Source: Gammaproteobacteria bacterium (GTDB taxonomy: Bacteria; Pseudomonadota; Gammaproteobacteria; Steroidobacterales; Steroidobacteraceae). From it: a stretch of DNA of 64,000 nucleotides. Positions 13,189-29,306 of the stretch are shown here, in pieces. Where the stretch lies: NCBI GenBank assembly GCA_003164785.1, contig PLUE01000022.1, positions 301,862-365,861 on the forward strand, in the 5' to 3' direction. The number at the start of each line of letters is the position of its first letter. The stretch's first letter is position 1. Made by a program: the position numbers and the translations under genes. The notes under the pieces were generated by a model. It made no database searches. It was not told the DNA's origin and worked only from the letters and a program-made list of their open reading frames with translations.

Positions 13189-14555
13189 TGGAATCGCTGG
13201 ACAACTGGATCGACGGGCAGTACCGCCATAGCGCGACGGCGATGCTGCAGAGCGTGTCGTCGGACATCGTCAAGACGCGGCCGGGTTTCGGTCAGGTGAT
13301 CCGCGCGAAAAAGGGCTCGATCGTCGCCTCCCCGGTCTGCGCCAGCTATGACCCGGAGCCGGACTACTTCTTTCACTGGTATCGCGATTCGGCCATCGTG
13401 GTCGACGCGATGCGCGTGTTGCTCGAGGATTCGCGCAGCGGCATCGACACGGCCGGTATAGGCGCGGCCGGCATAGACACGATGGATCGGTTCGCGGACT
13501 TCGTCCGGTTCAGCGCATCGCTCCAGGAGCTCGACGGCCGCGCACTCAACGCCGATCGCGCGTGGCGCGGCCGCGTTGCCGATGATTTCAAGCAATATCT
13601 ACGCAGCGAAGCGGAGCTATCCGTGATCCGCGGCGCGGCCACGAGCGCCGAGACACGCGTGAATCCGGATGCCAGTCTGGACATCTCCCGATGGCCCCGA
13701 CCGCAATACGACGGGCCGGCGATGCGCGCCGTGACGTTGCTGCGATGGCTGCGCACGCGGTGGCTCGACGCCGCGCTCCAGGCGAATGTCGAGGCGCTCC
13801 TCTATTCGGACCTGGAAGTGATCCGCGCTCACTCGCGCGAGTCCGGTTTCGATATCTGGGAGGAAGAGCGCGGCGTGCATTACTACACGCTGCGTGTCTC
13901 GGCGGCGGCGCTGTGGGCGGGCGCCGCCTGGTTCAACGACCATGGCCGACCGGCTGAAGCACACGCGTGGGCCACCGAAGCCGACGACATCCTGCGCCAG
14001 CTCGAGGGGTATTGGAATCCCGAGCAACGCTACTTTCGTTCGCGGGTGCTCGACTCCGGGATGCCGTCCGGAAAGGAGCTCGACATATCGGTGATTCTCG
14101 CCGCCGTTCACGTCGGCGCCGATGGCGGAACCGGCGGGCACACGGACACGCATTCGGCACACGACCCGCGAATGCGGGCGACCGCAGCGCGCCTCGAGGC
14201 CTTGTTCGATGCCGCGTATCCGATCAACCAGGCACGTCCGGCCGAGCGTGGTCCCGCCATGGGCCGCTATGCGGGCGACGTGTATTTCTCGGGGGGTGCC
14301 TATTATTTCTCCACGCTGGGCGTCGCGGAATTCTATTTCCAGGCGGCGCTGCGGGCGCCGGACCCGCGGCCGGACATCGAACGCGGCGACCGGTTCCTGC
14401 GCACGGTGCGCGCCTACACGCCGCCCGGCGGCGATCTGGCGGAGCAATTCGATCAGCGCACCGGAGTGCCGCGATCCGCCCGTCACCTGGCCTGGAGCTA
14501 TGCGGCATTCATATCCTGCATCGCGGCCCGTCGCCGCGCCCTGGATCTCAGGTAG
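13188..14555 (+). CDS. GH15 glucoamylase-like glycoside hydrolase
   Basis: A 455-residue member of the GH15 (alpha/alpha)6 family, which releases glucose from non-reducing ends of alpha-glucans. The N-terminus has the substrate-binding W-Y-R-D motif (FHWYRDSAIVVDAMR). The catalytic acid is predicted at E225 in DIWEEERG and the base at E419 in DLAEQFDQRTG, followed by the family ending LAWSYAAFISC. No signal peptide or starch-binding domain is present. I chose the ATG at 13188, which overlaps the preceding stop by one base (TGATG). The product probably works with the upstream hydrolase and ABC protein, although alpha- and beta-glucan activities in one operon make the real substrate uncertain. 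Confidence 0.9.
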   Translation: MESLDNWIDGQYRHSATAMLQSVSSDIVKTRPGFGQVIRAKKGSIVASPVCASYDPEPDYFFHWYRDSAIVVDAMRVLLEDSRSGIDTAGIGAAGIDTMDRFADFVRFSASLQELDGRALNADRAWRGRVADDFKQYLRSEAELSVIRGAATSAETRVNPDASLDISRWPRPQYDGPAMRAVTLLRWLRTRWLDAALQANVEALLYSDLEVIRAHSRESGFDIWEEERGVHYYTLRVSAAALWAGAAWFNDHGRPAEAHAWATEADDILRQLEGYWNPEQRYFRSRVLDSGMPSGKELDISVILAAVHVGADGGTGGHTDTHSAHDPRMRATAARLEALFDAAYPINQARPAERGPAMGRYAGDVYFSGGAYYFSTLGVAEFYFQAALRAPDPRPDIERGDRFLRTVRAYTPPGGDLAEQFDQRTGVPRSARHLAWSYAAFISCIAARRRALDLR

Positions 14556-14580
14556 GCTCGGGTCGGTTCAAGGTGTCGGT

Positions 14581-15105
14581 TCAAAGCACCGGCGGAGACT
14601 TGGGCTGAATCTCGTAAATCAGCCGCGGCGGATAGTCGGCATTTCGGTGAAAGCGCTCGGCGACGTACACAGTGACCAACGCGGTGATGAGCGAAACCGC
14701 AATCGTGGTGACCAGCCCCAGAAAGCCATCCTTGCGCTCCTGGTACCAGACCTCCATTCGGCCCGGCAGCGTGTGCAGTCGGATGGCACGGTCCGCGCCG
14801 GCGAACGTCACGGAGATCGCCACGACGTCATCGCCCGCCCGCGCGAGCTTGATGAGCCGGCGATAATGCAGGTAACGCAGCGGCAATTCGAATTTCGACA
14901 TGAGCAGTTTCTTGCGAATTTCGATGGGGACCACCGAACTGTCGAAACTTTGCAGATCGTCGCCCTTGTACCATCCAGTGCCCTCGACGTAGGAATGTGC
15001 CGCGAGCCACAGGATCTGATCACTGGTTGCGGTGAATTCCTCATCGATGCTCTCACGGTAATAATACAGCCCGTGAAGAAGCCGGTCTTCGTCCTTGCGG
15101 CTCAT
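14581..15105 (-). CDS. Tail-anchored-like membrane protein, unknown function
   Basis: A 174-residue protein I do not recognise. It is mostly soluble with one predicted membrane helix near residues 127-149 (GFLGLVTTIAVSLITALVTVYVA) and a short Pro-rich tail, so it would look like a C-terminally anchored protein. I chose the ATG at 15105 because it overlaps the stop of the upstream small gene (ATGA at 15102-15105), which implies translational coupling. A longer frame adds eleven residues that lie inside the neighbour. Confidence 0.6.
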   Translation of the reverse strand: MSRKDEDRLLHGLYYYRESIDEEFTATSDQILWLAAHSYVEGTGWYKGDDLQSFDSSVVPIEIRKKLLMSKFELPLRYLHYRRLIKLARAGDDVVAISVTFAGADRAIRLHTLPGRMEVWYQERKDGFLGLVTTIAVSLITALVTVYVAERFHRNADYPPRLIYEIQPKSPPVL

Positions 15106-15347
15106 GCCACCGAACTCAGGAAGGCCTCGATGGGGCACATCGAAACCGCGACTTCACCTGCAAGCTCCAACTCGGCGAACGCGACCAGCGCGACTTCATG
15201 ACGCACGACGATGCTGCGGACGGTGCCGAGTTCCGGCGGCAGGCAGGCTGCCTCGTGAGGCCCGGCATTGGCCAGCATCGTGAACAACGCCTCGCCGCCG
15301 CGTTCGCCCACGTACCAGCCGCTCAAGATCGCATCGACATCCTGCAT
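15102..15347 (-). CDS. Small protein coupled to membrane protein, unknown function
   Basis: An 81-residue protein of no recognised family, hydrophobic and Ala-rich in its second half, without a clear signal peptide. The ATG at 15347 is preceded by a strong GGGGGGAG site about seven bases upstream, better than the TTG two codons earlier. Its stop overlaps the start of the membrane-protein gene, so the two probably form a coupled pair or a small complex. Confidence 0.55.
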   Translation of the reverse strand: MQDVDAILSGWYVGERGGEALFTMLANAGPHEAACLPPELGTVRSIVVRHEVALVAFAELELAGEVAVSMCPIEAFLSSVA

Positions 15348-15427
15348 GCGCAAGCTCCCCCCGTTCAGTTGTTACGTTATACACCGCGGCGCCGCAACCG
15401 TATCGACGCGAGCGTCCCGGGCACCCT

Positions 15428-15664
15428 CTAATGGCTCTTGTAACCACGCGGTGCGGTCATCGGCACCGCACGCGCCGTGCACTGCTTCTGGTTGCATTTC
15501 GAGCATCGCAACCGCCTGACGACATCCGCGAGCGTCGCGTCCCACCCCGCGAATGCCGCCAATGTATGCGGGTGACAGCGACGGATGTGCCCGCAGACGC
15601 ACTTCAGGTAAATGATGTACTGGCCGAATTCGTCGCCGAGCTGTTGAATGTCGAGATCGCGCAT
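15428..15664 (-). CDS. Small cysteine-rich (zinc-ribbon-like) protein
   Basis: A 78-residue protein with two Cys/His clusters: KCVCGHIRRCHPHT in the middle and LRCSKCNQKQC near the C-terminus, a spacing that fits a zinc ribbon. Similar short proteins with a 'TLADVVRRLRCSKC' block occur widely in alpha- and gammaproteobacteria without known function. I chose the ATG at 15664; an upstream TTG would add 14 residues. Confidence 0.6.
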   Translation of the reverse strand: MRDLDIQQLGDEFGQYIIYLKCVCGHIRRCHPHTLAAFAGWDATLADVVRRLRCSKCNQKQCTARAVPMTAPRGYKSH

Positions 15665-15784
15665 GGGTGGTACTGTACATCCATCCAGCTTCCCGCCACA
15701 AAACAACTTCCAGCGTGACGGCCCCGATGCGACATAACGCCACCGCGGTGAACTCGCACCTCGCCTCGCTTCGATTCCTCTACG

Positions 15785-16219
15785 CTAACCGCAGTCGAAT
15801 TCCAACGCCATGGAACCGCCGCGCAGCGCGAACGCCCACTCGCCGTCGATGTGGACCACATCATCCTCGAACTGGCCGATCAGTATCTTCTGACCCTTGA
15901 CGGGCAGGACGGCGCCCGCCACCGGACTCATGTATAACGTCACGATGCTGGAAATGTGCGCGGACGTCCCTGAATGCACGGCGACCACGATGTTGTTCAG
16001 CACATGTCGCGTGGTGCGCGACGGGCGTGCGCGCAGCGACGCCAGGATATCCGCGCGGCCGACGATGGGCTTGGTCGGGTCGCTCGGCCGGACCAGCCGT
16101 CCCTCCACCGCGAACAACGCCGCCAGGTCATCCCACTGCTCGAAGTCCGTGTAGCGCGCCGCTCGGTAAACGAGCTGCTCGCAGGCCCGCGCAATGGTTG
16201 CGTTATCGATCGACATCAT
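15785..16219 (-). CDS. SnoaL/NTF2-like domain protein
   Basis: A 144-residue single-domain protein of the NTF2-like superfamily (SnoaL_4 type): a long N-terminal helix (ACEQLVYRAARYTDFEQWDDLAALFAVEGRL), a GRADI loop, then a curved beta-sheet (TTRHVLNNIVV). Members include small ring-hydroxylating dioxygenase subunits, dehydratases and isomerases, so activity cannot be assigned. The double ATG at 16219/16216 follows a GGGGAGAT ribosome-binding site. The gene is divergent from the large glucosidase, sharing a 91-bp intergenic region that contains a repeated AGGATCCGG. Confidence 0.8.
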   Translation of the reverse strand: MMSIDNATIARACEQLVYRAARYTDFEQWDDLAALFAVEGRLVRPSDPTKPIVGRADILASLRARPSRTTRHVLNNIVVAVHSGTSAHISSIVTLYMSPVAGAVLPVKGQKILIGQFEDDVVHIDGEWAFALRGGSMALEFDCG

Positions 16220-16253
16220 GATCTCCCCCTGGCTGGTCGCGCAGTATATCGTC

Positions 16254-16306
16254 AGGATCCGGATTACCACTACAGTCAGACCTTCGTCATACCCACTAGG
16301 ATCCGG
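16254..16306. repeat. Pair of AGGATCCGG direct repeats in divergent promoter region
   Basis: AGGATCCGG occurs at 16254-16262 and again at 16298-16306, 44 bases apart (about four helical turns), between the divergent SnoaL-like and GH63-like genes. Each copy contains the palindrome GGATCC. The spacing would allow two protein dimers on the same DNA face; a chance repeat is possible. Confidence 0.35.
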
Positions 16307-16310
16307 TGTC

Positions 16311-18980
16311 GTGAGCACAGAAGAAGAAAAAAGACTCGACGAGGCGATCGCGGGCACACATCCCTGGCGGCTTTGGGGGCCGTATCTGAGTGAAAGGCAA
16401 TGGGGAACCGTCCGCGAGGACTACAGTCCGAACGGCACGTCCTGGGAGTTCGTGACCTTCGATAAGTCCAGATCCTATGCCTACCGCTGGGGAGAGGACG
16501 GCATCGCCGGCATCTCCGACGACCGGCAACAACTGTGCTTTGCCGTGGCGATGTGGAATGGTGCCGACCCGATTCTGAAAGAGCGTCTGTACGGCCTGTC
16601 GGGCAAAGAGGGGAATCACGGCGAGGATGTCAAGGAGTGCTACTTCTACCTGGACAACGTGCCCACCCACGCCTACATGAAGTATCTCTACAAGTATCCT
16701 CAGGCTGCATTTCCATACGCCACGTTGCTGGAGGAAAATCAACATCGCACACGCAAGGATCCGGAATACGAACTGCTCGACACCGGCATCTTCGACGACA
16801 ATCGTTACTTCGACGTCTTCATCGAATATGCGAAGCAATCCACCCACGACATCTTCATCCGGATCACCGTCGCCAATCGCGGGCCTGACGCGGCCGACAT
16901 CCACGTGTTGCCGACACTGTGGTTCAAGGACGACTGGACTTGGTTTCCGAGCAACGCCAGACCGCGAATCGCCATCGACCGGCAGGACGGGGACTGCCTC
17001 GTGCTCAAGACGACGCATCGCAAGCTGGATACCTACTGGATGTATGGCGAGACACCGGAGCGGGCGCTGTTCACCGAGAACGAATCGAACAAGAAACGCC
17101 TGTACGGCGCGCCCAACGCCACGCCCTTCGTCAAGGATGGGTTCAACGAATTCATCGTGAACGGCGTCACCGGCGCGGTGAATCCCGGGCTGATCGGATC
17201 CAAGGCGGCGCTGCAGTATCGCCGCCGAATCGACGCCGGTCGGAGCACCGTCCTGCGGCTTCGCCTTACCCACCGCGGCGATCTCGACTTTCCGGAAGCC
17301 GAGGATTTCGACGCGCTATTCGACCAGCGCCGCCGCGAAGCCGACGAATTCTACCGGCGCGTCACTCCATTCAAGATGTCGGCGGACATGCGCAACGTGC
17401 AGCGCCAGGCGTTCGCCGGCATGCTGTGGACCAAGCAGTACTACCGCTACCTCGTCCATCGATGGCTCGAAGGCGATCGCGCCGCACCGCCCCCGCCGGA
17501 AGAGCGCAAACACGGCCGCAACCACGACTGGTGGCATCTATCGGCGGCGGACGTCCTGTCCATGCCGGACAAATGGGAATACCCTTGGTTCGCCGCATGG
17601 GACACCGCCTTTCACGTGATCCCCTTTGCGATGATCGATCCCGATTTTGCGAAACAACAGCTCCTGTTGCTGACCCGCGAATGGTACATGCATCCCAACG
17701 GTCAGATACCCGCCTACGAGTGGGCGTTCGGCGATTCGAATCCGCCGGTCCACGCCTGGGCCGCGATCCGTGTGTATCAGATCGAACAGAAGATGTACGG
17801 CCGCAGCGACCGGGCGTTTCTCGAGCGCATCTTTCAAAAACTGCTCATCAACTTTACCTGGTGGGTCAACCGCAAGGACACCCAGGGGAACAACTTGTTC
17901 GAGGGCGGCTTCCTCGGCCTCGACAATATCGGCGCCTTCGATCGCACGTCGGGTCTGCCGCCCGGAGGCCTTCTGGAGCAGGTCGACGGAACCAGCTGGA
18001 TGGCCATGTATTGCCTCAACATGTTGACGATCTCGGTCGAACTGGGGCAGACCAATCCGGCCTACCAGGATCTGGCGACCAAGTTCTTCGAGCATTTCGT
18101 CTACATCGGCGCCGCCGCCAACCGCGTGAGCGATCATGTCCGGCCGGGGTTGTGGAACGAAGAGGCAGGATTTTACTTCGACGCCCTCAAGCTCGCCGAT
18201 GGCCAACGGTTGCCGATCGCGGCGCACACCATCGCCGGCCTGATACCGATCTTCGCCATCGCAACGTTCGACCGGGAGAGCATGCGTGCCTTTCCGGGGT
18301 TCGTAGAGCGCTATGGCTGGTTCGCCAAATACCGGCCACACCTGCTGGAAGGACTCGCCGACCTCACGCATCACGGCGTGGCCCAACGCGTGCGGCTGGC
18401 GCTGGTCGATTCCCACAAATTGCGGCGTCTGCTCGAGTGCACGCTGCGCGAGAGCGACCTGCTCGGCGAATTCGGCGTGCGCTCGGTGGCCAAGCGGCAC
18501 GCGGACAATCCGTTCGTGCTCGAACTCGATGGCGAGAGCTTCGTGCTCGACTATCAACCCGGCGAATCGACCTCCGTCATGTTCGGCGGCAATTCGAACT
18601 GGCGGGGGCCGGTGTGGTTTCCCCTGAATTTCCTGCTGATCGAGTCGCTGCAAAAGCATCACTACTTTTTGGGGGACGACTTCAAGATGGCGTTGCCGAC
18701 GGGAAGCGACAATGCCGCCACCCTGTGGGAGGTCACGACCGACCTGTCGTGGCGGCTCATCAGTATTTTCCTGAAGGATGCGGACGGTCGACGGCCGGTG
18801 AACGGCGACCGCAAACAGTTTCACGACGACCCGCATTGGCGGGATCTCGTGCTGTTTCATGAATATTTTCACGGCGACACCGGCGTCGGCCTGGGCGCGA
18901 GCCACCAGACCGGCTGGGCCGGCGTGGTGGCGAAGCTCATCCTTCAATACGCCGAACGCCCCGCTCCCGACGTCCCATAG
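16311..18980 (+). CDS. Large GH63/MGH1-like glucosidase
   Basis: An 889-residue glycosidase of the bacterial branch related to GH63 and mannosylglycerate hydrolase (MGH1-like), with an (alpha/alpha)6 C-terminal catalytic domain. Typical features are the N-terminal PYLSERQWGTVREDYSPNG block, the beta-rich N-domain, WDTAFHVIPFAMIDPDFAK near residue 430, and the C-terminal GNSNWRGPVWFPLNFLL with GDTGVGLGASHQTGWAG. No signal peptide is seen. I chose the GTG at 16311; upstream in-frame starts overlap the divergent gene's promoter. Family members hydrolyse alpha-glucosidic or mannosyl linkages of small glucosides and compatible solutes; the substrate here is unknown. The nearby GH15, GH3 and glycoamylase-like genes suggest a common glycan role. 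Confidence 0.85.
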   Translation: MSTEEEKRLDEAIAGTHPWRLWGPYLSERQWGTVREDYSPNGTSWEFVTFDKSRSYAYRWGEDGIAGISDDRQQLCFAVAMWNGADPILKERLYGLSGKEGNHGEDVKECYFYLDNVPTHAYMKYLYKYPQAAFPYATLLEENQHRTRKDPEYELLDTGIFDDNRYFDVFIEYAKQSTHDIFIRITVANRGPDAADIHVLPTLWFKDDWTWFPSNARPRIAIDRQDGDCLVLKTTHRKLDTYWMYGETPERALFTENESNKKRLYGAPNATPFVKDGFNEFIVNGVTGAVNPGLIGSKAALQYRRRIDAGRSTVLRLRLTHRGDLDFPEAEDFDALFDQRRREADEFYRRVTPFKMSADMRNVQRQAFAGMLWTKQYYRYLVHRWLEGDRAAPPPPEERKHGRNHDWWHLSAADVLSMPDKWEYPWFAAWDTAFHVIPFAMIDPDFAKQQLLLLTREWYMHPNGQIPAYEWAFGDSNPPVHAWAAIRVYQIEQKMYGRSDRAFLERIFQKLLINFTWWVNRKDTQGNNLFEGGFLGLDNIGAFDRTSGLPPGGLLEQVDGTSWMAMYCLNMLTISVELGQTNPAYQDLATKFFEHFVYIGAAANRVSDHVRPGLWNEEAGFYFDALKLADGQRLPIAAHTIAGLIPIFAIATFDRESMRAFPGFVERYGWFAKYRPHLLEGLADLTHHGVAQRVRLALVDSHKLRRLLECTLRESDLLGEFGVRSVAKRHADNPFVLELDGESFVLDYQPGESTSVMFGGNSNWRGPVWFPLNFLLIESLQKHHYFLGDDFKMALPTGSDNAATLWEVTTDLSWRLISIFLKDADGRRPVNGDRKQFHDDPHWRDLVLFHEYFHGDTGVGLGASHQTGWAGVVAKLILQYAERPAPDVP

Positions 18981-18983
18981 TGA

Positions 18984-19769
18984 TCAGCACACGCGCTCGA
19001 GCGCGGGTATCAGCCCGGCCACGCTCTCGATGACCACATCGGCTCCGGCGGCGAGCAACGCCTTCTCGGCGGTCGCGAGTCGCGCGGCCCGCTCCGCGGG
19101 AAGCAGCGCACCCAAGGCTTCCTGGGACAGCCCGATGCTGTTGCCCGATGCCGCAACGCCGACGGTGAAGCATCCGGCGGAGCGCCCCTCGCCCATGCCC
19201 ACGTCGGCATCATCGACCTTGACGACCCGCGACAGCGGCCACACGCCGAGCTCGGCGCATGCCTTGTAGATCATGAGCGGCGTGGGCCGGCCTGCCGGCG
19301 TCTCGTTCGCGCATACCAGGTGCTCCGGAACGTAGCCTTGCGCCGCCGCCTCGCGCAGCACCGGCGCCATCATCGCACGGGTGTATCCGGTGGACGACGC
19401 CACCCGCACCCCCGCCGCCCGCAAGGCATCGACGGTCGCCCGCGCGCCGTCGATCAGGCGAGCCGCGCGCGCCGCCTGTTCGGTCATCAACGGGCCCAGA
19501 TCGGCCATCAAGACGTCGACGTCGGTTTCGCCCGACACCCGGCCGACGGCGTCGATCCAGGCCTGCGCGACCACGGGATCCGCCAGCAGTGCGCGCACAT
19601 GATCGGCCTTGGCCTTGCCCATGTCGCGCCGGGCCTGGGCATCGGTCAGTGTCACGCCATGGCGTGCGAAGGCTTCGCGCAGGGCGATCACGGGCGCGAG
19701 ACAGCCAAAGTCGACCATGGTCCCTGCCCAGTCGAAGATCACCAAATCGAATCGATCGCGTATGGACAT
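18984..19769 (-). CDS. phnX: Phosphonoacetaldehyde hydrolase (phosphonatase)
   Basis: A 261-residue HAD-superfamily enzyme that cleaves phosphonoacetaldehyde to acetaldehyde and phosphate in the cytoplasm. The nucleophile motif FDWAGT places Asp13 and Ala15 as in characterised PhnX. The motif RRDMGKAKADHVR supplies the Schiff-base lysine at K54. Later HAD motifs SSTGYTRAMM (Ser/Thr) and KVDDADVGMGEGRSAG (acidic pair) are present. The ATG overlaps the TAA of the upstream FAD oxidoreductase (TAATG), so the two are translationally coupled, linking aldehyde formation to hydrolysis. No PhnW aminotransferase gene lies in the window. Confidence 0.95.
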   Translation of the reverse strand: MSIRDRFDLVIFDWAGTMVDFGCLAPVIALREAFARHGVTLTDAQARRDMGKAKADHVRALLADPVVAQAWIDAVGRVSGETDVDVLMADLGPLMTEQAARAARLIDGARATVDALRAAGVRVASSTGYTRAMMAPVLREAAAQGYVPEHLVCANETPAGRPTPLMIYKACAELGVWPLSRVVKVDDADVGMGEGRSAGCFTVGVAASGNSIGLSQEALGALLPAERAARLATAEKALLAAGADVVIESVAGLIPALERVC

Positions 19770-20938
19770 TAAATCGAGCTCCCACCAAACAGGTCATTGA
19801 CGACATCTTCACCGATCGCGAAACCGCTCGACGCGCCCGAACCGCTGGTGACGATGGCGATGCGCACGTCGGATGCGGGTGCGTCGATGAACATCATTCG
19901 ATCGGCCGTCGACGAATAAGTGCCGGTCCATCGGGCAATCACGGGCGGCGCGGGACGACCGAGCGCGCGCGCGAATTCGTCGAGAATCAGCTGGTCGATT
20001 CGCTCATCCGCGAAGGGATCCGGTGTCGGCGCATAGTGGTGGCTGTCGCCGACCACGAGCGTGCCGTCGGCGCTCTGCACGACAATGAGATGGATCCCAT
20101 GCCGCAGATGTTCGCCCTGCTCGGTCTCGAGCCGCGCGCGCAACGCAGCCGCCGCCGGCAGCGCCGCATAGCCGGCATAGCGCACCAGCCCCAGGTCGGA
20201 CATCACCGCATGCGGCAGACGGAACCCGGGATCGGCCAGCCGAAGCATCTGCAGCTTGCAGCGGGTCACGTTGTAGAGCGCGATTCGTTCCGGGAACAGC
20301 CCCCCATGATCGTCACCGGGACAGACGATGACCGCACCCGCCTGCACGTCGCCGCGGGAGGTCTCGAGACGCGGCGGCTGCGCCGAGAGCACCGTCGTCT
20401 GGCGCAGGAATTCGACGCCGAAGCGCGCCGTCAGCCAGGCGGCGATCCTCGGGACCGCTTCGCGCGACTCCACCCGGACGTCGACCGAACTGGTGAGCAC
20501 CGCCTGCACCTCGTCATTCACGATCTCCCCGCAGCGGGCGGACGCTTCGGCTCTGGTCAAGATCGCGCATCCCTCACCCATCTCGGTATCGAGAAAGGCC
20601 TCGAGCACCGGCACCGCTTCCGGGCGCCGCGTCGTCAGCCACAGTCCACGCTGAAGGATGGGGATGCCCGCTTCCGCGGCCACCTCCTGCCAGATGGCGC
20701 AGGTCCGCCGTGCGCGATTCCACGCGACGCCGCGCTCCTGGCCGGTGACCGTGACGAAGCCGAAGTTCCGCACCGAGGCGCCGTTCGCTTGTGCATCGCG
20801 ATCGATTACCACGACGCGCAGTCCCTTCAGCGCGGCCGCACGTGCGCACGACAGCCCGACGATACCCGCACCCACCACCGCCAGATCGAAGATGCCGGAG
20901 ACGGCAGATCGGGAATTCATGACTTGTTCGTTGACCAT
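19769..20938 (-). CDS. FAD-dependent amine oxidase of phosphonate loci (TIGR03364-type)
   Basis: A 389-residue DAO-fold flavoenzyme with the dinucleotide motif VVGAGIVGLSCARAAALKG at residues about 20-40. It contains the subfamily stretch NGASVRNFGFVTVTGQE and a C-terminal GSGASSGFAIGEDVVNDL. This TIGR03364 group is found next to PhnX; related enzymes oxidise (N-methyl-)2-aminoethylphosphonate to phosphonoacetaldehyde, the PhnX substrate. That would make it the entry enzyme here instead of PhnW, a role inferred from family and context. It is coupled to phnX by TAATG. The start may be ATG 20938 or ATG 20920. Confidence 0.88.
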   Translation of the reverse strand: MVNEQVMNSRSAVSGIFDLAVVGAGIVGLSCARAAALKGLRVVVIDRDAQANGASVRNFGFVTVTGQERGVAWNRARRTCAIWQEVAAEAGIPILQRGLWLTTRRPEAVPVLEAFLDTEMGEGCAILTRAEASARCGEIVNDEVQAVLTSSVDVRVESREAVPRIAAWLTARFGVEFLRQTTVLSAQPPRLETSRGDVQAGAVIVCPGDDHGGLFPERIALYNVTRCKLQMLRLADPGFRLPHAVMSDLGLVRYAGYAALPAAAALRARLETEQGEHLRHGIHLIVVQSADGTLVVGDSHHYAPTPDPFADERIDQLILDEFARALGRPAPPVIARWTGTYSSTADRMMFIDAPASDVRIAIVTSGSGASSGFAIGEDVVNDLFGGSSI

Positions 20939-21033
20939 TTCGACGCACGCAGGCTAATACAGAAACATGACAGGCAAATGGCGCGGGTGCAACCGGTGGC
21001 AAAATAAACTGGCCGGTGGATTTTCGCGGTAGT

Positions 21034-21052
21034 CTTGGGTTTAGCTCCCAAG
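21034..21052 (+). promoter_or_regulatory. Hairpin overlapping ribosome-binding site of DUF5690 gene
   Basis: CTTGGG (21034-21039), a seven-base loop, then CCCAAG (21047-21052). The right arm overlaps AAGGA (21050-21054), the only purine-rich site before the GTG at 21067. If transcribed, the stem could mask ribosome access. It is short enough to be coincidental. Confidence 0.3.
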
Positions 21053-21066
21053 GAAAACGAATTCCC

Positions 21067-22374
21067 GTGACCGGTAAACTGCATCGACTGCTCGAAGGAG
21101 CGAATCCCGTCCTCTTCACGACCTTCGCGGGACTTGCGGGCTTTTCTGCCTACTCCTCCATGTATGCGTTCCGCAAGCCCTTTTCGGTGGCGCTGTTCGA
21201 GAACGTTCCGGGCTGGCATTTCGCGCTCGACTACAAGATTGCCCTGGTCCTGGCGCAGGTGGCAGGCTACGCGATCGCGAAGATCATCGGGGTCAAACTC
21301 ATCGCCGAGATCAGCCCGAACCGGCGGCCCGGCGCCATTATGAAGCTCATATTCCTGGCCTGGGTGGCGCTCGTGCTGTTCGCCCTCGTGCCCGCGCCGT
21401 GGAACGTGCTGGCCATGTTCCTGAACGGCCTGCCGCTCGGCATGATCTGGGGGCTCGTGTTCGGTTTCATGGAGGGCCGACGCACGTCGGAGGTGCTCGG
21501 AGCGATCGTTTGCGCGAGCTTCATCCTGGGGTCCGGCGGCGTGAAATCGGTGGGCAAGTATTTGCTCGACACCTGGCACGTCGGCCCGTTTTGGATGCCC
21601 GCGATCGCGGGCGCGCTGTTCTTCCCGCTGCTTGGGCTCTCCGTCTGGTGCCTGTCCCAACTACCGCCGCCGTCGGCCCGTGACGAGTTGGAACGGGTGC
21701 GTCGCGCCCCGATGGGCGCGAAGGAACGCTCGCAATTTCTCAAACGCTATGGGACCGGAGTGGCATTGCTGGTCGTGTCGTATATCCTGACCACGGCGCT
21801 GCGCGACTTTCGCGACAATTTCGCGGCGGAATTGTGGACCGCCCTCGGGTTCGGGCATGCCGCCTCCGTGTTCACCGAGAGCGAACTACCGGTGGCGCTG
21901 CTGGCGCTCACAGTGCTCGGCGTCATCATTATGGTCCGCGACAATGATCGGGCCCTGCTCGTCATCCATGGCGTGGTGCTCGTGGGTCTTGCGCTCCTGG
22001 GGCTATCCACCCTGGCCTACCAGGCAGGACTGCTGTCGCCACTCGCCTGGATGATATTGAGCGGCGCCGGCCTGTACATGGCGTACGTACCGTTCAATGC
22101 GATGCTGTTCGATCGCTTGATCGCCGTCGGCGGCACGGTGGGCACGGCCGGCTTCCTGATCTACATCGCCGATGCCTGCGGCTATGTCGGCAGCTGCGGG
22201 CTCCTGATCTGGCGCAACTTCGGCATGGTCCAGCTGAACTGGCTGCAGGTCTTCATGTTCAGCGCCTACGGCGCCAGCATCTTCGGCATCGGGCTCGTCG
22301 GTGCCTCGGCGGTGTTTTTCTGGCGGACGGCACGCACCATCAGGCCCTGGGCGACGTCCGTCGCTACCGGCTGA
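21067..22374 (+). CDS. DUF5690 / MFS-like membrane transporter, candidate phosphonate permease
   Basis: A 435-residue polytopic membrane protein with about twelve hydrophobic segments and the DUF5690 N-terminal block FAGLAGFSAYSSMYAFRKPF, plus NGLPLGMIWGLVFGFMEGRR. The fold resembles the major facilitator superfamily. It is divergent from the FAD oxidase-phnX pair, so an import role for 2-aminoethylphosphonate or a methylated form is a reasonable inference, not a known function. A GTG at 21067 has AAGGA 12 bases upstream; an upstream GTG at 21016 lacks a site. The 3' end overlaps the convergent TPR-sulfotransferase by eleven bases. Confidence 0.8.
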   Translation: MTGKLHRLLEGANPVLFTTFAGLAGFSAYSSMYAFRKPFSVALFENVPGWHFALDYKIALVLAQVAGYAIAKIIGVKLIAEISPNRRPGAIMKLIFLAWVALVLFALVPAPWNVLAMFLNGLPLGMIWGLVFGFMEGRRTSEVLGAIVCASFILGSGGVKSVGKYLLDTWHVGPFWMPAIAGALFFPLLGLSVWCLSQLPPPSARDELERVRRAPMGAKERSQFLKRYGTGVALLVVSYILTTALRDFRDNFAAELWTALGFGHAASVFTESELPVALLALTVLGVIIMVRDNDRALLVIHGVVLVGLALLGLSTLAYQAGLLSPLAWMILSGAGLYMAYVPFNAMLFDRLIAVGGTVGTAGFLIYIADACGYVGSCGLLIWRNFGMVQLNWLQVFMFSAYGASIFGIGLVGASAVFFWRTARTIRPWATSVATG

Positions 22375-24559
22375 CCAGCCGCAGCAGAGGCCCGACGAAC
22401 GGCTGGTAATTCCTCCAGCGGCCGGCGGACGCCGTATGGATTTTTTGGCGCACCTGCCACTTGCTGGTGGTGATGACGGCGCGCTGCGTCTGATGGAAAT
22501 CCAGGCACCGGGGATCCCACGGCAAACCGATGAACTCCACCATGCGCCGACTCCAGCCTTCTTGATCCTCCACCAACGACTCGTACGGCACCTCGAGCAG
22601 CGTCGTCGGCGGCAGCATGGCGCGCCAGTGATCGGTGATCCTCACGTACTCGCCGTAATAATGCGCCAGGTTCTCGAGATCGTTCGCATACGGATGGGTG
22701 CTCGAAAAATACTGGAAATAGATCGACAGGCAGGTATCGATGGGGTGTCGCCGCATATGGATGATTCTGGCATTGGGAAACGCCGCATGGATCGATCCGA
22801 GGTTCATGAAATTCGCCGGCATCTTGTCCACCACCCGGAGCGCGGTGCTGGAGAGCGACGTCAGGTGGGCAAGATACCCGGCGCTCACGAGGTCAACCGT
22901 GCCGCGAGCCGCCGCGGCCTGGTCCCAGAACGTCAGCTCGCCGGCCCCGAACACCGCCGGATGGGACGCGAGGATTTGCTCGGTCAACGTCGTGCCCGAG
23001 CGCGGCATGCCGACGACGAAGACGGGACGCTCGGAGGGGTTCGACCCCGCCGGCTCCGGGCGCCGAGCGTCGACGCCGCCGATGATTTCGTCGACCCGCC
23101 GGCTCTGCCGGGTTCCGTCGTATTTCACACCGTAGCGCTTGGTCAACTCGTTGGCCGAGCGATAATGGTCGAAGGCCTGCCCGTACTGCGCGACGTCGTC
23201 GAAGTACTTGCCGAGCGCATAGCGCAGACTGATCTCATGCCGAAGCGGCAGCCGCTTGGCAAGCAACGCCTCGGCGCCCTCGAGCCAGGAGCGGTCCTCT
23301 TCCGACATCTTGCGATGGGCCACGATACCGCACCAGGCGTTCGAGAGATCCGGGTCGATGGCTAACGCGCGCCGGAACAATCCCTCGGCCTCGGCAAACC
23401 GCCCCTGGTCCGCGCAGAGCTCACCCAGGAACGAGAGCGCTTCGGCGGAGTCCGGCGCGATCGAGAGCGCAGCCCGGCACGCCGCTTCCGCGTCGGCCGC
23501 GCGGCCCTGGCGGCGCAGCACCATGCTCGAGGTCAGGTGGGCCGGGGCATAGTCGGGCTGCAGCACCAGGGCCCGGGCGTAACTCGCGGCCGCGTCGTCG
23601 AGCCGCCCAAGATCGAGCAACGCGTTGCCGAGATCACGATGGTTCGCGGCGCGACCCGGATCGAGTTCGACGGCCTGACGGAAGCACGCCACGCTGTCCC
23701 GCAATTCGCCCAGATCGCGCAGCGCATTGCCAAGATTCATCCGTGCTTCGATATGACGCGGATTCAACTCCAGCGCCCGCCGATAGCTCGCGATGGCCTC
23801 GCGGAACCGGCCGCGCGCGGCGAGCGCGATGCCGATGGTGTCGTGCGGTTCGCTCAACGCCGGGTCGAGCGCGATCGCCCGCTGGCAACAGGCCATCGCC
23901 TCGTCCAGCCGCCCCATCTGGCGCAGCGCATTGCCCAGATTACTGTGCACCGCTGCATCATCCGGCTCGATCCCGAGAGCAGCCCGGTAACACGTCACGG
24001 CTTCCGGATACCGGCCGAGCGCCAACAACGTGTTGCCAAGATCGTTGTGCGCCTCGATCAGGTGCGGCTCGAGGCGCAGCGCCCGCTGATAGAAGGTGAT
24101 CGCCTCCGAGGTGCGCCCCAGCGCGCGCGAGGCATGGGCCGCGTCGATCAAAGCCTTCACGTCGCGTGGCTGCAGATCGAGCGCTCGACGCAGGCTGGTC
24201 AAGGCCTCGGCCCATTCTCCTCGATCATGCAGGGCCGCACCGAGATTGCCATGCGCTTCCGCATCCCGCGGCAGCAGCTCGGCGGTTCTGCGCAACGCCG
24301 GCAGGGCATCTTGTCCCTGCCTCAGCAGGGACACACCGAAGATCTTCCACAACATTCCGTTGCCCGGATGCGTGGTGAGAAGCGCACGGGCGGCCGCGGC
24401 CGCCTCGCTCGCGCGTCCGTTACCCACCAACGCGACCAGCGCGCCGATCTCGTTCGGGTGCAATGTCGGGAGCACCGACGGCGCCGGCTCACGCCCGCAG
24501 CAGTGTTTGTATTTCTTTCCGCTGCCGCACGGGCAGGCTTTGTTTCGACCGGGTTTCAT
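22364..24559 (-). CDS. SEC-C motif TPR-sulfotransferase
   Basis: A 731-residue protein with three parts: an N-terminal SEC-C zinc motif (KACPCGSGKKYKHCCG, residues about 7-22), roughly eleven tetratricopeptide repeats (about 40-430), and a C-terminal sulfotransferase domain. The PAPS-binding loop is VFVVGMPRSGTTLTEQILASHP and the 3'-phosphate loop is near MRRHPIDTCLSIYFQYF. Such proteins are common beside TonB receptors in proteobacteria and resemble tyrosylprotein sulfotransferases, but no substrate is known. I chose the ATG at 24559, sixteen bases from the stop of a second TPR-sulfotransferase, so the two are one operon. Confidence 0.9.
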   Translation of the reverse strand: MKPGRNKACPCGSGKKYKHCCGREPAPSVLPTLHPNEIGALVALVGNGRASEAAAAARALLTTHPGNGMLWKIFGVSLLRQGQDALPALRRTAELLPRDAEAHGNLGAALHDRGEWAEALTSLRRALDLQPRDVKALIDAAHASRALGRTSEAITFYQRALRLEPHLIEAHNDLGNTLLALGRYPEAVTCYRAALGIEPDDAAVHSNLGNALRQMGRLDEAMACCQRAIALDPALSEPHDTIGIALAARGRFREAIASYRRALELNPRHIEARMNLGNALRDLGELRDSVACFRQAVELDPGRAANHRDLGNALLDLGRLDDAAASYARALVLQPDYAPAHLTSSMVLRRQGRAADAEAACRAALSIAPDSAEALSFLGELCADQGRFAEAEGLFRRALAIDPDLSNAWCGIVAHRKMSEEDRSWLEGAEALLAKRLPLRHEISLRYALGKYFDDVAQYGQAFDHYRSANELTKRYGVKYDGTRQSRRVDEIIGGVDARRPEPAGSNPSERPVFVVGMPRSGTTLTEQILASHPAVFGAGELTFWDQAAAARGTVDLVSAGYLAHLTSLSSTALRVVDKMPANFMNLGSIHAAFPNARIIHMRRHPIDTCLSIYFQYFSSTHPYANDLENLAHYYGEYVRITDHWRAMLPPTTLLEVPYESLVEDQEGWSRRMVEFIGLPWDPRCLDFHQTQRAVITTSKWQVRQKIHTASAGRWRNYQPFVGPLLRLVSR

Positions 24560-24575
24560 GATGGCCGGCGGCGCG

Positions 24576-26588
24576 TCAATCGCGATAATGATCCAGTGCA
24601 TCGCCGAGCGCATCCTTGAGCGGGCCGAGCCACGGCTCGAAATGCTTCCACTGCTCCAATCCCTCGCGGAAAATCGGCCGGCGAACCTGCTCCGAACTCG
24701 CGGTGCGCACACTGCGCTCGGTCTTGTGAAACTCGACGCAGCCCGGCTCGAACTCGAGTCCGCAATAAGCCAGGATGCGCCTCACACTGCCCTCCAGATC
24801 CTCGACCACGTCTTCATGTTGGACGCGAAGAATGCGTCCGGGCAGCACACCGTCCCAGTGGCGCATCAGCTCGAGGTAGGTTCTGTAGTAGCGGGCGATG
24901 TCCTCGATGCTGTAGGTGAACTCCTGGCCATTGGCGAACAGCTGCTTCAAGTTGCTGAAGCAGCACGCCATCGGCTCGCGGCGGGCATCGATGATCCTGG
25001 CGTTCGGCAGCATCAGGTGGATCAGTCCCAGGTGGCGGAAATTGTTCGGCATCTTGTCGATGAAGAAGGGCGCGCCCGACTTGCGATAGACACGCGTGTC
25101 GGCGAGATATTTCTCGCCCAATTCGCGAAAGTTGTCGGCCGTCAACTGCGGCAGGACGCGGGGATAGCGGGGATTGTTCAGATCCGGATCGCGTCCCTGA
25201 AGGTTCACCACGATGCGCTGGATGTCGGCGAGTTCCTGCGTACCCTCCACCTGCGAGTGCGAGGCGAGAATCTGCTCCAACAGGGTCGAGCCCGAGCGTG
25301 GCAGCCCCACGATGAAGATGGGATCCGGAGCCGGCGCCCCCACGGCGCGCCGGCTCGCGAAAAACCCCGCCGTGCACACCTCGATCTGTTGCCGCGTGTT
25401 GGTCTCGATGATCTCCGGCCGGTATTTGCTGGCCGAGCGCTTCAGCCCGTTGCCGAGTTCGTAATAGCGAAACGACTCCGCATACTCGCCGCGATCCTCG
25501 AGCGCCTTGCCGAGCGCGAAACAGAGATGGGACCGATCGACCACCCCGCTGTCCGGCCTCGCCTGCGCGTCGCGCAGCGCCGTCATTTCCTGGTCGGTGA
25601 AGCGGTAAGTCTTGAGGTTCGCGAGGCTCCAATAGGCATCCCCGAAGTTGGGACGCAAAGCCGCCGCCGCGCGATAGGCATCGATGGCCTCTTCGCGCCG
25701 GCCGAGGGTCTTGAGCGCATGCGCGATCGACAGATGCAGTTCGGCATCGGTGGGCGCGCCTTCGAGCAGTTCCCGGTACAGACCGACCGCCCGCTCGTGT
25801 TCACCCAGTCCCACGCAGCTGGTCGCATACAACGTCCGGTTGAGCCGGTGATCGGGCTCCCGTTCGAGCAGCCGCTCCAGCTCCCGCCGGGCCTGGCTGT
25901 ACTTGTGACGGTCCAGCAGCACGCCGGCATATTCCTGGCGCGCCACGCGGTAATCGGGCGCCCTTTCGAGCACGGCCTCGAGCAGGAGTTCCGCATCGTC
26001 GAGCACCTCGCGCGCGATGCCGATTCGGGCGAGCAGCCGCATCGCTTCGACATGGTCGCCGTGCTTCAGCAAATAGGCCCGCACCAGCGACTCCGCCAGA
26101 TCGAGGTCGCCGTCCGAGAACAGCCCGGTCCCGGTCACCACCTCGGGCGGCAGACTCTTGAGCGTCGCCACGTGACTCGACGCCATGGCCGCGTTGTCCG
26201 GCTGTCCCGTCATGCGGTACAGCCCCTCGAGCATGCGCCAACTCGACGGCAGAGCCACATTGATGTTCACGGCCGAGAGGAAGGCGTCGATTGCCGGCGG
26301 CGCCTGCTTCAAGGCGACGAAGCAATGGCCGCGCTCCTCGTGGAGCCGGCTGAACCGCGGATGCGACCGCTCGAGCCTGGCGAGCGTGTCCAACGCGGCC
26401 GGGATCCGGCCCAGATAGCGCTGCGCGACGGCCACCATGAGCAGCGTATCGCGATGGGCGGGGTCCGCGGCGAGCGCGGCCTCGCCTGCGGCCAGCGCCT
26501 CCGCAAACTGCTGCTGCCGCAACAGCGCCCGAATCCGCCCCACCTCGGATCGGCGGGCCGCGGTGGCTGTGGCGTCGGTGGAATCCAT
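24576..26588 (-). CDS. TPR-sulfotransferase (second of a tandem pair)
   Basis: A 670-residue relative of the downstream gene without the SEC-C motif. The N-terminal ~390 residues are TPR-like helical pairs (for example ALKTLGRREEAIDAYRAAAALRPNFGDAY). The sulfotransferase domain follows, with the PAPS loop IFIVGLPRSGSTLLEQILASHS and ANLRQ-type motifs such as DARREPMACCFSNLKQLF. It is the first gene of the pair and lies downstream of the TonB receptor, separated by a strong terminator. Divergence between the two copies suggests different acceptors. The acceptor molecule (protein, glycan or other) is not predictable here. Confidence 0.9.
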   Translation of the reverse strand: MDSTDATATAARRSEVGRIRALLRQQQFAEALAAGEAALAADPAHRDTLLMVAVAQRYLGRIPAALDTLARLERSHPRFSRLHEERGHCFVALKQAPPAIDAFLSAVNINVALPSSWRMLEGLYRMTGQPDNAAMASSHVATLKSLPPEVVTGTGLFSDGDLDLAESLVRAYLLKHGDHVEAMRLLARIGIAREVLDDAELLLEAVLERAPDYRVARQEYAGVLLDRHKYSQARRELERLLEREPDHRLNRTLYATSCVGLGEHERAVGLYRELLEGAPTDAELHLSIAHALKTLGRREEAIDAYRAAAALRPNFGDAYWSLANLKTYRFTDQEMTALRDAQARPDSGVVDRSHLCFALGKALEDRGEYAESFRYYELGNGLKRSASKYRPEIIETNTRQQIEVCTAGFFASRRAVGAPAPDPIFIVGLPRSGSTLLEQILASHSQVEGTQELADIQRIVVNLQGRDPDLNNPRYPRVLPQLTADNFRELGEKYLADTRVYRKSGAPFFIDKMPNNFRHLGLIHLMLPNARIIDARREPMACCFSNLKQLFANGQEFTYSIEDIARYYRTYLELMRHWDGVLPGRILRVQHEDVVEDLEGSVRRILAYCGLEFEPGCVEFHKTERSVRTASSEQVRRPIFREGLEQWKHFEPWLGPLKDALGDALDHYRD

Positions 26589-26602
26589 AAGCGTCCATGA
26601 AC

Positions 26603-26629
26603 AAAAAAGGGCGGACCCGCGTCCGCCCT
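26603..26629 (-). terminator. Rho-independent terminator of TonB-receptor gene
   Basis: On the minus strand the sequence forms a perfect 9-bp stem (AGGGCGGAC pairing with GTCCGCCCT, plus-strand positions 26608-26616 and 26621-26629) with a four-base loop, followed by six T residues (plus-strand A tract 26603-26608). It lies 50 bases after the receptor stop and just before the sulfotransferase start, so the sulfotransferases may depend on read-through or their own promoter. Confidence 0.85.
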
Positions 26630-26678
26630 CGATTCTACTGCAACCGGCCGTTGCCGGCCGGCCCGGTCGCCTAGCCGA

Positions 26679-29306
26679 TCAGAACTTGTAGCCGAACATC
26701 AGCGTCAGCACCCGCGGACGCAGCGGCACTTCCGTCTTGATGAACTGATTGGACGACGTGTACATGCTGGCATCGGAGTTGGTGATGTTGTTGCCGGTGA
26801 TCTGCGCGGTCCACTGATCCTTGGCCACGCCGATCGACGCATCGTACGTCGTGTATCCCGGCATGGTGTACTGGCACAAGGTCGTGTTCGGCACCCCACC
26901 GGCGAGACAGCCCCCTTCCGAGGTCGGCAGGTTGCCGGACGGGAAACTCGCCGGCTCGTTGCGCTGCGACCCGATATGACTGGCGCCGACGGAAACGAAG
27001 GTCTTGTAGTCGAAGACCGGCTGGTCCCACCGCGCCCGCAGATTGAACTGCAGCGGCGGCGAGAAGGCCGGCGACGTGTCGAGCTGGCCGTAGGGGTTCG
27101 CGAAGGGCGCGCCGTTGACCGTCGTGATGCACTGACCCTGGGGCGTCGGATTACCCTTCGCGGCGGGCACGTCGCTCGTCAAGCAAGGCGCGCTGATCTG
27201 ATTCGTGCTGTTCCACGAACTCGACCCTTGCACCGTCAGCTGTTCGATCGGGCGCGCGACGACTTGCAGCTCGACGCCTTTCACCTCGTAGGTGGGACCG
27301 TTGGTGACGAACGTCGTGTTGCCCAGCTGCGAGGGATCGAACAACGGGATCTGCACGCCCTCCCATTTCATCTTGTAGAGCGAGCCGTTCAGCTGCAGAC
27401 GATGGTCGAAAAATTCGGTCTTGGCGCCGATCTCGTTGTTGATGAGATTGTCCGAGCTGTAACCCTCCGGTTTGTAGTACTGCCGGGTCGCCTTGTCGCC
27501 CGCGGTGTAAGGCGCGACCGCCGCGAGCGAGACGATGCCGTCGGGCGATGCCGTGCGGTTGAAGCCGCCCGGACGAAAGCCCTGCGAATACGTGTAGTAC
27601 ACCATGGTGTCCGGCGTGACGTGCCAGGTCAAATTGCCGCGGCTGCGGCTGCCGGACTCCTGCTTATGCAGGTCAATGCCGAAGCCGTTGGTCGCCGTCC
27701 CATTGGGTTTGTCGACGCTGGCGGTCGACGTATAGAACTCCGAACCCGTCTCGAATTCGTCGTAATGGAACAAACGCGTGCCGCCGGTCAACGTCAAGAC
27801 TTTCGGGATGATGTCGAAATCGGCGGAAGCGAAGAACGCCCGCTGGATGTAGCCGCGCTGCGCGTCCTCGCCGAACGCGGTGCTCGAGGAGCGCAGACCC
27901 GGATCCACCGCCGGCGTGCCGGCGATCGGGCCGGTCGCGGCCACGCAGTCCGGACCGCCGGTCAACGCGGTCGTGAGGTTGGCCGGCGTACACTGCGGAA
28001 TGGACAGATAGTTGAAATTCATCTGGTCCTGGATCTGGAACTCTTCCCAGAACAAACCCGCGGTACCGCGGATTCGATATTCGTCAGGCGAACTCACGCG
28101 GACTTCGTGGCTCTGATGTTCGTTTTGAACCGTGTCGTTCCAGGAGCCGACGGGGGCGTAGCAGCTCTGGGGCTTGGCAGCCGAACCGAGTCCCGACTTG
28201 GCGCCGGTGCAGGCGTAATACTGGCCACCGCCGCTCAGCAGATAGTTGGAGTAGTCGGCCTGCTGCTCGATGTGGCGGATCATGTAGCTGCCGGTGTAGA
28301 CCAGCTTCCAATCGTCGATCTTGCCGTTCACGGTCCAGGACGTGGCCTCGTACTTGTCCTTGTCGTAGGCGGGCGAGAAGGCCGTGATCTGATACGGCGC
28401 CAAGGCAGTGCCCTGCGAGGAGACGGGATACTCGTTGAAATAGCCGTCCGCCTCCATGTTCTGATAGCTCTGCGTCACGAGCACGTTCCAGTCATCGTTG
28501 ATCTGGTACAGGCCCGACACGCGCAATCCCTTGTAGGTGACCGTATTGGTGTTGTCCGCGACCAGGTTGTTGTTGTTGGCGCTCGGCATGTTGGCCACCG
28601 GCAACGTGATCGTCCCCGGGACGTTGTCGATGTAGCCGCCGCGGCTGTCGCTGTAGATCGTGCCGCGGATGGCGAGGTGGTCGGCGATCAGCGGCAGATT
28701 GATGGTGGCGTTGACGCTGGAATTCGGATCGCCGCCGGCCGTGACGCCGTAGGAGGCATTGACGTCACCCTCGGTAACGTCCAGTTTCGGCTTGTTCGTG
28801 ATGTAACGGATCGCACCGGCCTGCGCACCGCCGCCGAACAGAGTTCCCTGGGGACCTTCGAGGACCTCGACGCGCTCCATGTCGACCATGTAAACGTCGG
28901 CGTTGCGGGCCGGGAACTGCATGGACTCGTCATCGAGATACACCGCGACGTTCGGGAACGGCGCGGTGGTGGACTGCGACTGGTTGCCGGAACCGCCGGA
29001 GCTCAGGCCGCGCATGAAGATGTTGCCCTGGCCGGGGCCGTTGCCACTGTAGGTCACGTTCGGCGTATACTTAAGCAGGTCGTCGAACGTTTGCACGTTC
29101 AATTGCGTCAATTGCTCTCCCGTGATCGCCTGGATTGTGATCGGCACGTCTTGGATCGATTCGGTGCGCCGTTGTGCTGTGACCGTGATCTCCTGAATGC
29201 CCTCGGAATCGCTGGCATCGGTTGCGGTTGCCGCGTACGAGAATCCCACCGGCGCGCCGCTCAAAACCGCAGCAATCGCATACGACAACTTCGTATTTGC
29301 ATTCAT
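26679..29306 (-). CDS. TonB-dependent outer-membrane receptor
   Basis: An 875-residue receptor. A signal peptide covers about residues 1-26 (ending FSYAATA), followed by a TonB-box-like segment (IQEITVTAQRR) and the plug domain with DDLLKYTPNVTYSG and ERVEVLEGPQGTLFGGGAQAGAIRY. A 22-strand barrel follows, ending in LTLMFGYKF with the C-terminal Phe needed for outer-membrane assembly. It imports a large nutrient by TonB energy. The neighbourhood of two TPR-sulfotransferases recalls receptor/sulfotransferase loci in proteobacteria, so a sulfated or aromatic ligand is conceivable but unproved. Confidence 0.95.
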   Translation of the reverse strand: MNANTKLSYAIAAVLSGAPVGFSYAATATDASDSEGIQEITVTAQRRTESIQDVPITIQAITGEQLTQLNVQTFDDLLKYTPNVTYSGNGPGQGNIFMRGLSSGGSGNQSQSTTAPFPNVAVYLDDESMQFPARNADVYMVDMERVEVLEGPQGTLFGGGAQAGAIRYITNKPKLDVTEGDVNASYGVTAGGDPNSSVNATINLPLIADHLAIRGTIYSDSRGGYIDNVPGTITLPVANMPSANNNNLVADNTNTVTYKGLRVSGLYQINDDWNVLVTQSYQNMEADGYFNEYPVSSQGTALAPYQITAFSPAYDKDKYEATSWTVNGKIDDWKLVYTGSYMIRHIEQQADYSNYLLSGGGQYYACTGAKSGLGSAAKPQSCYAPVGSWNDTVQNEHQSHEVRVSSPDEYRIRGTAGLFWEEFQIQDQMNFNYLSIPQCTPANLTTALTGGPDCVAATGPIAGTPAVDPGLRSSSTAFGEDAQRGYIQRAFFASADFDIIPKVLTLTGGTRLFHYDEFETGSEFYTSTASVDKPNGTATNGFGIDLHKQESGSRSRGNLTWHVTPDTMVYYTYSQGFRPGGFNRTASPDGIVSLAAVAPYTAGDKATRQYYKPEGYSSDNLINNEIGAKTEFFDHRLQLNGSLYKMKWEGVQIPLFDPSQLGNTTFVTNGPTYEVKGVELQVVARPIEQLTVQGSSSWNSTNQISAPCLTSDVPAAKGNPTPQGQCITTVNGAPFANPYGQLDTSPAFSPPLQFNLRARWDQPVFDYKTFVSVGASHIGSQRNEPASFPSGNLPTSEGGCLAGGVPNTTLCQYTMPGYTTYDASIGVAKDQWTAQITGNNITNSDASMYTSSNQFIKTEVPLRPRVLTLMFGYKF

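Follow-up and report, generated by a model that had tools for sequence, protein, structure and literature searches.

DUF5690 as a predicted aminophosphonate permease beside a PbfD-type oxidase and PhnX

2-Aminoethylphosphonate (AEP) is the most common natural phosphonate according to the abstract of Zangelmi 2023 (PMC10590968), and which organisms can recycle its phosphorus and nitrogen depends on their ability to take it up. In a stretch of 64,000 nucleotides from a Steroidobacteraceae genome (contig PLUE01000022.1 of assembly GCA_003164785.1; hereafter the window), two genes for AEP breakdown, phnX and a pbfD-type oxidase gene, stand back to back with a gene for a DUF5690 membrane protein, which raises the question of how the substrate of these enzymes enters the cell. 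We consider it very probable that the three genes form a two-enzyme aerobic aminophosphonate route with its own transporter, in which DUF5690 is a predicted inner-membrane importer of the major facilitator superfamily (MFS), resembling the organophosphate:phosphate antiporters (OPA). DUF5690 would carry AEP and close forms (N-methyl-AEP, perhaps 1-hydroxy-AEP) across the inner membrane, PbfD would convert the amine to phosphonoacetaldehyde, and PhnX would split this into acetaldehyde and inorganic phosphate (Pi), for which DUF5690 may exchange AEP. The gene identities, linkage, replacement, predicted fold and conserved residues were established here, while the PbfD and PhnX chemistry is taken from literature on homologues; from these we infer that DUF5690 transports, in which direction, with which substrates and possibly in exchange for Pi.

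The window's phnX (18984..19769, minus strand) encodes a phosphonoacetaldehyde hydrolase of 261 aa that scores 313.3 bits against TIGR01422 (cut-off 220). In a phmmer match to a solved PhnX chain (E 3.9e-55), FDWAGT and the Lys of MG..K.DH line up, both of which we take to have catalytic roles. The oxidase gene (19769..20938, minus strand) encodes an FAD oxidase of 389 aa that matches PF01266 and scores 416.3 bits against TIGR03364 (cut-off 285.1), the single match over that cut-off in the whole genome. The two open reading frames (ORFs) have base 19769 in common, in a minus-strand TAATG overlap of oxidase stop and phnX start. The DUF5690 gene (21067..22374, plus strand) matches PF18943 at 507.5 bits (gathering cut-off 25), its sole Pfam match; no ABC (ATP-binding cassette) permease domain and no NCBIfam match were found in its protein. 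The listed ORF opens at GTG 21016; we prefer GTG 21067, preceded by AAGGA at 21050, as the probable start, so that a divergent gap of 128 bp (20939..21066) separates DUF5690 from the oxidase. A shared operator in this gap was considered and rejected, as an alignment of 10 such regions held no conserved motif, and no sigma-70-like site or terminator was matched there. No aminotransferase family was matched among the ten ORFs from 12969 to 29306, and PhnW (TIGR02326) has no match in the genome at E <= 1e-60. The layout described by the first-pass annotation, namely phnX coupled to a TIGR03364 oxidase by TAATG, no aminotransferase nearby and a divergent DUF5690 gene sharing the intergenic region, is thus borne out. 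As for other AEP transporters in the genome, the best TIGR00881 match reaches 134.8 bits, under the cut-off of 407.75; two PF13343 binding proteins, which may bind AEP, are encoded on different contigs from the phn genes.

The enzymatic half of the module has a published counterpart. PbfD enzymes, one of them annotated as TIGR03364, convert N-methyl-AEP and AEP to phosphonoacetaldehyde, and PbfD2 is only 4-fold less effective on plain AEP than on N-methyl-AEP; a PbfD2-PhnX pathway was described for a phnW-less genome, Mariniblastus fucicola (Zangelmi 2023, PMC10590968). By homology, the window oxidase is a predicted AEP/N-methyl-AEP oxidase, which supports the earlier proposal that it stands in for PhnW, a role already published for PbfD homologues, and the lack of a PhnW match in its genome fits the published description of the PbfD2 subgroup (PMC10590968). 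This half of the module is therefore already published, and the window is a further case of the PbfD-PhnX pathway.

The permease half is supported by gene neighbourhoods. Stretches around DUF5690 genes were fetched and searched by tblastn at fixed thresholds for phnX, PhnX-like, pbfD, pbfC, phnW, phnY, phnA and pbfA; most linked enzymes were identified by BLAST, and representatives by family model. At least one AEP-catabolism gene was found near DUF5690 at 56 of 80 loci in a contig set consisting of the best 80 of 583 relatives, which therefore leans to near kin (45 within 1 kb), at 21 of 30 Bacteroidota loci (19 within 1 kb) and at 15 of 20 loci from the window's own family (11 within 1 kb), with eight contigs common to two of the three sets. 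Among 20 control stretches of 16 kb from the same Bacteroidota contigs, 13 at about 190 kb from DUF5690 and 7 at 31 to 92 kb, none held an AEP-catabolism gene, and the sole marker match was a weak one to PhnR (74 bits). These counts and controls confirm that the DUF5690/phn neighbourhood exceeds chance. The same arrangement is seen in RefSeq annotation of plasmids (three records examined of four found): DUF5690-TIGR03364-PhnX with overlapping genes in Novosphingobium sp. EMRT-2, and DUF5690-phnX-phnW in Bacteroides finegoldii and Parabacteroides distasonis.

DUF5690 stays constant while the adjoining AEP pathway varies (PbfD-PhnX, PhnWX, PhnWYA, PbfC, PbfA). It stands by PbfD-PhnX in many Caulobacterales and Sphingomonadales as in the window, by PhnWYA with PbfC or PbfD in the window's own family, by PhnX-PbfC-PhnW in Pseudoalteromonas and Thalassotalea, by PhnW-PhnX with PbfA in an Ignavibacteriales genome and a Bacteroidota metagenome-assembled genome, by TIGR03364 with PhnX-like in Flavobacteriia, and by PbfA in Arenibacter (NF049939, 730 bits). 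PhnWYA and PbfD2-PhnX are described as having no enzyme in common (PMC10590968); the two routes coincide in the substrate that they use and the Pi that they set free. In a quick tree with 131 DUF5690 rows, 99 show AEP linkage, across all major branches, 5 of the 99 having been labelled by hand (contig ends or more distant genes).

Co-occurrence was examined in two samples, 150 genomes from the bacterial family of the window and 296 from Bacteroidota, sampled evenly across the phylum. In the family, DUF5690 is over cut-off in 21 genomes, TIGR03364 in 17 and both in 12 (Fisher p 8e-9); 20 of the 21 DUF5690 genomes have phnX or phnW (two of these phnX being contig-edge fragments under cut-off, and G074 the sole exception) versus 19 of 129 others (p 3e-13). 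The Bacteroidota search used TIGR03364 and TIGR03351 as markers, with TIGR01422 and PhnW outside it. There, DUF5690 is over cut-off in 29 genomes, and it accompanies TIGR03364 in 21 of 23 genomes (22 over cut-off) and the TIGR03351 PhnX-like protein in 20 of 21 (8 over cut-off), p being about 1e-23 in each case. A survey of DUF5690 against phnX and TIGR03364, which the first-pass annotation had put forward as the check that might overturn its proposal, thus found strong co-occurrence in both samples, and together with the linkage it favours the suggestion that DUF5690 is the uptake permease.

If DUF5690 is an importer, what occupies its place where it is missing? The comparison set comprised 14 phn loci from DUF5690-less genomes, 11 from the window's family (with phnX or TIGR03364) and 3 from Bacteroidota (TIGR03364 or TIGR03351); genomes with PhnW alone lay outside it. 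In ten of the 14, a permease belonging to one of the known types of AEP transporter lies no more than about 6 kb from a phn gene. Four are ABC permeases: L248, L249 and L252, for which PhnV (TIGR03255) is the best NCBIfam model at 217-225 bits, under its cut-off of 358.7, and L258 (BPD_transp_1). The other six are OPA-type MFS permeases: L259, L260 and L261 (TIGR00881 at 163-195 bits, under the same cut-off as above), L253 and L255, first found with the L261 query, and L256, a contig-edge fragment; in L256, L259 and L260 they directly adjoin the phn gene. Eight of these ten permeases supplied the search models and so necessarily match them (L252 and L256 have no match); the informative figure is that from the DUF5690 loci: at E <= 1e-5 and above 25 bits, an ABC (PhnV-like) or OPA-type permease was found at none of 136, a total in which eight contigs are counted twice. 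Neither kind was found in L250, L251, L254 and L257; L257 has an MFS permease of another type. In L251, a thiamine-pyrophosphate enzyme stretch (PF00205; 9409-10683) directly adjoins pbfD-phnX and might use acetaldehyde.

The AlphaFold model of DUF5690 (pLDDT 92.8) has an MFS fold, and its nearest solved folds are those of SLC37A4 (13-19% identity in the OPA-family matches). The GlpT phosphate-site residues R45, K46, K80 and R269 align to DUF5690 R35, K36, K71 and R245, invariant in 59 of 59 sequences, in an alignment that is remote (a smaller profile had placed R269 four residues off). Against 11 single E. coli proteins the scores were weak, UhpT and GlpT being best, and the OPA link emerged clearly only from a profile of 11 OPA members and from the structure; a profile combining 10 other MFS proteins gave a score on DUF5690 as well, so OPA is a preference, not an exclusive match. 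Filing DUF5690 as an OPA member was rejected because it falls below the TIGR00881 cut-off, with 1 of 59 members matching, at 5.8e-7. The best reading of the model is an MFS permease that is remotely OPA-like.

Some observations weigh against an AEP importer. Between 25 and 30% of DUF5690 loci have no AEP gene on their stretch. A Caulobacter vibrioides control genome carries DUF5690 without PhnX over cut-off and with TIGR03364 and PhnW unmatched at 1e-60, and in C. vibrioides OR37 (G153) the stretches around three DUF5690 copies (L095, L201, L202) are free of AEP genes; two of the three copies adjoin a phospholipase C gene. Phospholipase C of PF04185 recurs near DUF5690, in 19 of 80 contig-set loci (e.g. 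L095, 6909-9038, with an N-terminal RRSLLR stretch that is presumably a twin-arginine-like motif); 14 of these also have an AEP gene, and the enzyme could free AEP from phosphonolipids. The five that lack AEP genes, two of them with a PhoD-like phosphatase (L133, L135), are compatible with a wider substrate range. DUF5690 might thus carry zwitterionic organophosph(on)ates in general (phosphocholine, phosphoethanolamine, AEP), with phosphonate clusters as one use among several, and the control genome is in keeping with this. We regard it as a possible but clearly less likely explanation, since the commonest neighbours across the tree are AEP enzymes and not phospholipases, and such a phospholipase is near only 1 of 30 Bacteroidota loci (with one Caulobacter query only). 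Taurine as the main substrate was also considered. Xsc (sulfoacetaldehyde acetyltransferase) occurs in three DUF5690 islands (L075, 13432-15207; L077, 4710-6482; L078, 15391-17217), but the same contigs (L239-L241) hold phnY-phnA-pbfC-phnW about 11 to 17 kb off, as a joint aminophosphonate and sulfonate island, so taurine would be at most a second substrate.

That an MFS or OPA fold is no proof of transport is illustrated by UhpC, an OPA-like protein annotated as a glucose-6-phosphate sensor, and DUF5690 could in the same way sense external aminophosphonate. A sensor should coexist with a transporter, whereas DUF5690 and the known AEP-permease kinds exclude one another (0/136 vs 10/14), and no kinase occurs among the annotated recurrent neighbour clusters (clusters k11, k12 and k16 lie outside the annotation); this role is very unlikely. 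Scarcely more probable is export of a product (Pi, methylamine or acetaldehyde). Pi is indeed what all the linked hydrolytic pathways yield, it is exchanged by OPA relatives, and P. putida using AEP as N source exports its surplus Pi (PMC8316502), but the three ABC replacements with the AEP importer subunit PhnV as best model fit import. The linkage could, lastly, have arisen because the genes share islands and are transferred laterally, with no shared function, as the islands carry further genes (TonB receptor, sulfotransferase, Xsc). We give this very little credence: the genes stay linked across Proteobacteria and Bacteroidota and in an Ignavibacteriales genome, where the pathway genes differ and the ORFs in part overlap, and another permease kind is usual where DUF5690 is missing.

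For the AEP importer, then, the import direction is suggested by the catabolic context and the replacement by PhnV-like permeases, and Pi exchange, a further step, by the OPA kinship and the Pi release by PhnX or PhnA. More tentatively, and with rather more doubt than belief, we propose that DUF5690 is a separate, widespread aminophosphonate:phosphate antiporter family, each AEP being paid for by Pi from PhnX or PhnA, in a scavenging route for phosphonolipids or phosphonoglycans. AEP uptake would then need no ATP and surplus Pi would be shed, and the route, in Alphaproteobacteria and Bacteroidota (including Bacteroides and Parabacteroides), would include TonB receptors or SusCD, with phospholipase C added in some lineages. 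If DUF5690 is an importer, it would fill the transporter gap in clusters with enzymes but no recognised importer, a family of unexplained role would gain a function, and surveys would gain a new marker gene, with a reach of 29/296 Bacteroidota genomes and 21/150 genomes of the window's family.

Other genes recur around these clusters. In the window, a TPR-sulfotransferase protein (24576..26588, minus strand; Sulfotransfer_3 and TPR) and a TonB-dependent receptor (26679..29306, minus strand; PF00593 and PF07715) lie beyond DUF5690, and the pair (24576-29306) recurs by AEP clusters with and without DUF5690. Of the family's 20 DUF5690 loci, 9 have a homologue of the former and 8 one of the receptor (52-59% identity); among its 11 phn loci lacking DUF5690, the counts are 7 and 6. 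The window receptor may provide an outer-membrane step. A GntR/UTRA regulator similar to PhnR (L095, 9143-9928, and relatives; TIGR03337 243 bits, under the cut-off of 297) stands near DUF5690 in 27 of 80 loci, some without catabolic genes. In Muricauda and relatives (L141, 13094-18704), a SusC/SusD-like pair and a helix-turn-helix-cupin regulator follow DUF5690-TIGR03364-PhnX-like. A PF01663 phosphodiesterase, which possibly releases phosphonates outside the cytoplasm, recurs by PbfA in Bacteroidota phosphonate clusters (L150, 11599-15949, with PA14; L158, L178, L187, L259, L260).

How does DUF5690 compare with known systems? In the open-access literature searched, with most subscription papers and supplements outside its scope, no mention of DUF5690, PF18943 or IPR043745 was found, and the proposal of a DUF family as a missing AEP permease is to this extent new. 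The Mariniblastus fucicola pathway resembles the window in having a PbfD-type oxidase and PhnX without PhnW, but the main text of that paper is silent on DUF5690, 'membrane' and 'MFS', and 'transporter' stands only in its reference list (PMC10590968). The published AEP uptake systems are AepXVW, AepSTU, AepP and the PhnSTUV and PhnCDE types (Murphy 2021, PMC8316502). PhnV-like permeases fill the niche in related DUF5690-less clusters, as noted, yet PhnSTUV, AepXVW and AepSTU are ABC transporters, whereas the window DUF5690 matches no ABC family. SLC37A4, GlpT and UhpT, the OPA proteins, differ in their sugar- or glycerol-phosphate substrates, and GlpT H165 has no assigned equivalent in DUF5690. 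The first-pass annotation knew no precedent for its proposal, which holds for DUF5690 but not for MFS permeases of AEP, as AepP of P. putida BIRD-1 is a GlpT-related MFS permease on which growth with AEP as the only N source depends (PMC8316502). AepP shares the MFS fold, is found with PhnWX or PhnWAY and keeps the phosphate-binding residues (PMC8316502), and OPA-type genes are present in AEP clusters without DUF5690. It differs in being recognisably GlpT-like, at 27.75% identity (PMC8316502), whereas DUF5690 has its own Pfam family and an OPA link by profile or structure only; OPA-type permease queries from phn clusters, AepP itself not among them, matched no DUF5690 locus at 1e-12. With AepP as the precedent, DUF5690 would most likely work like it.

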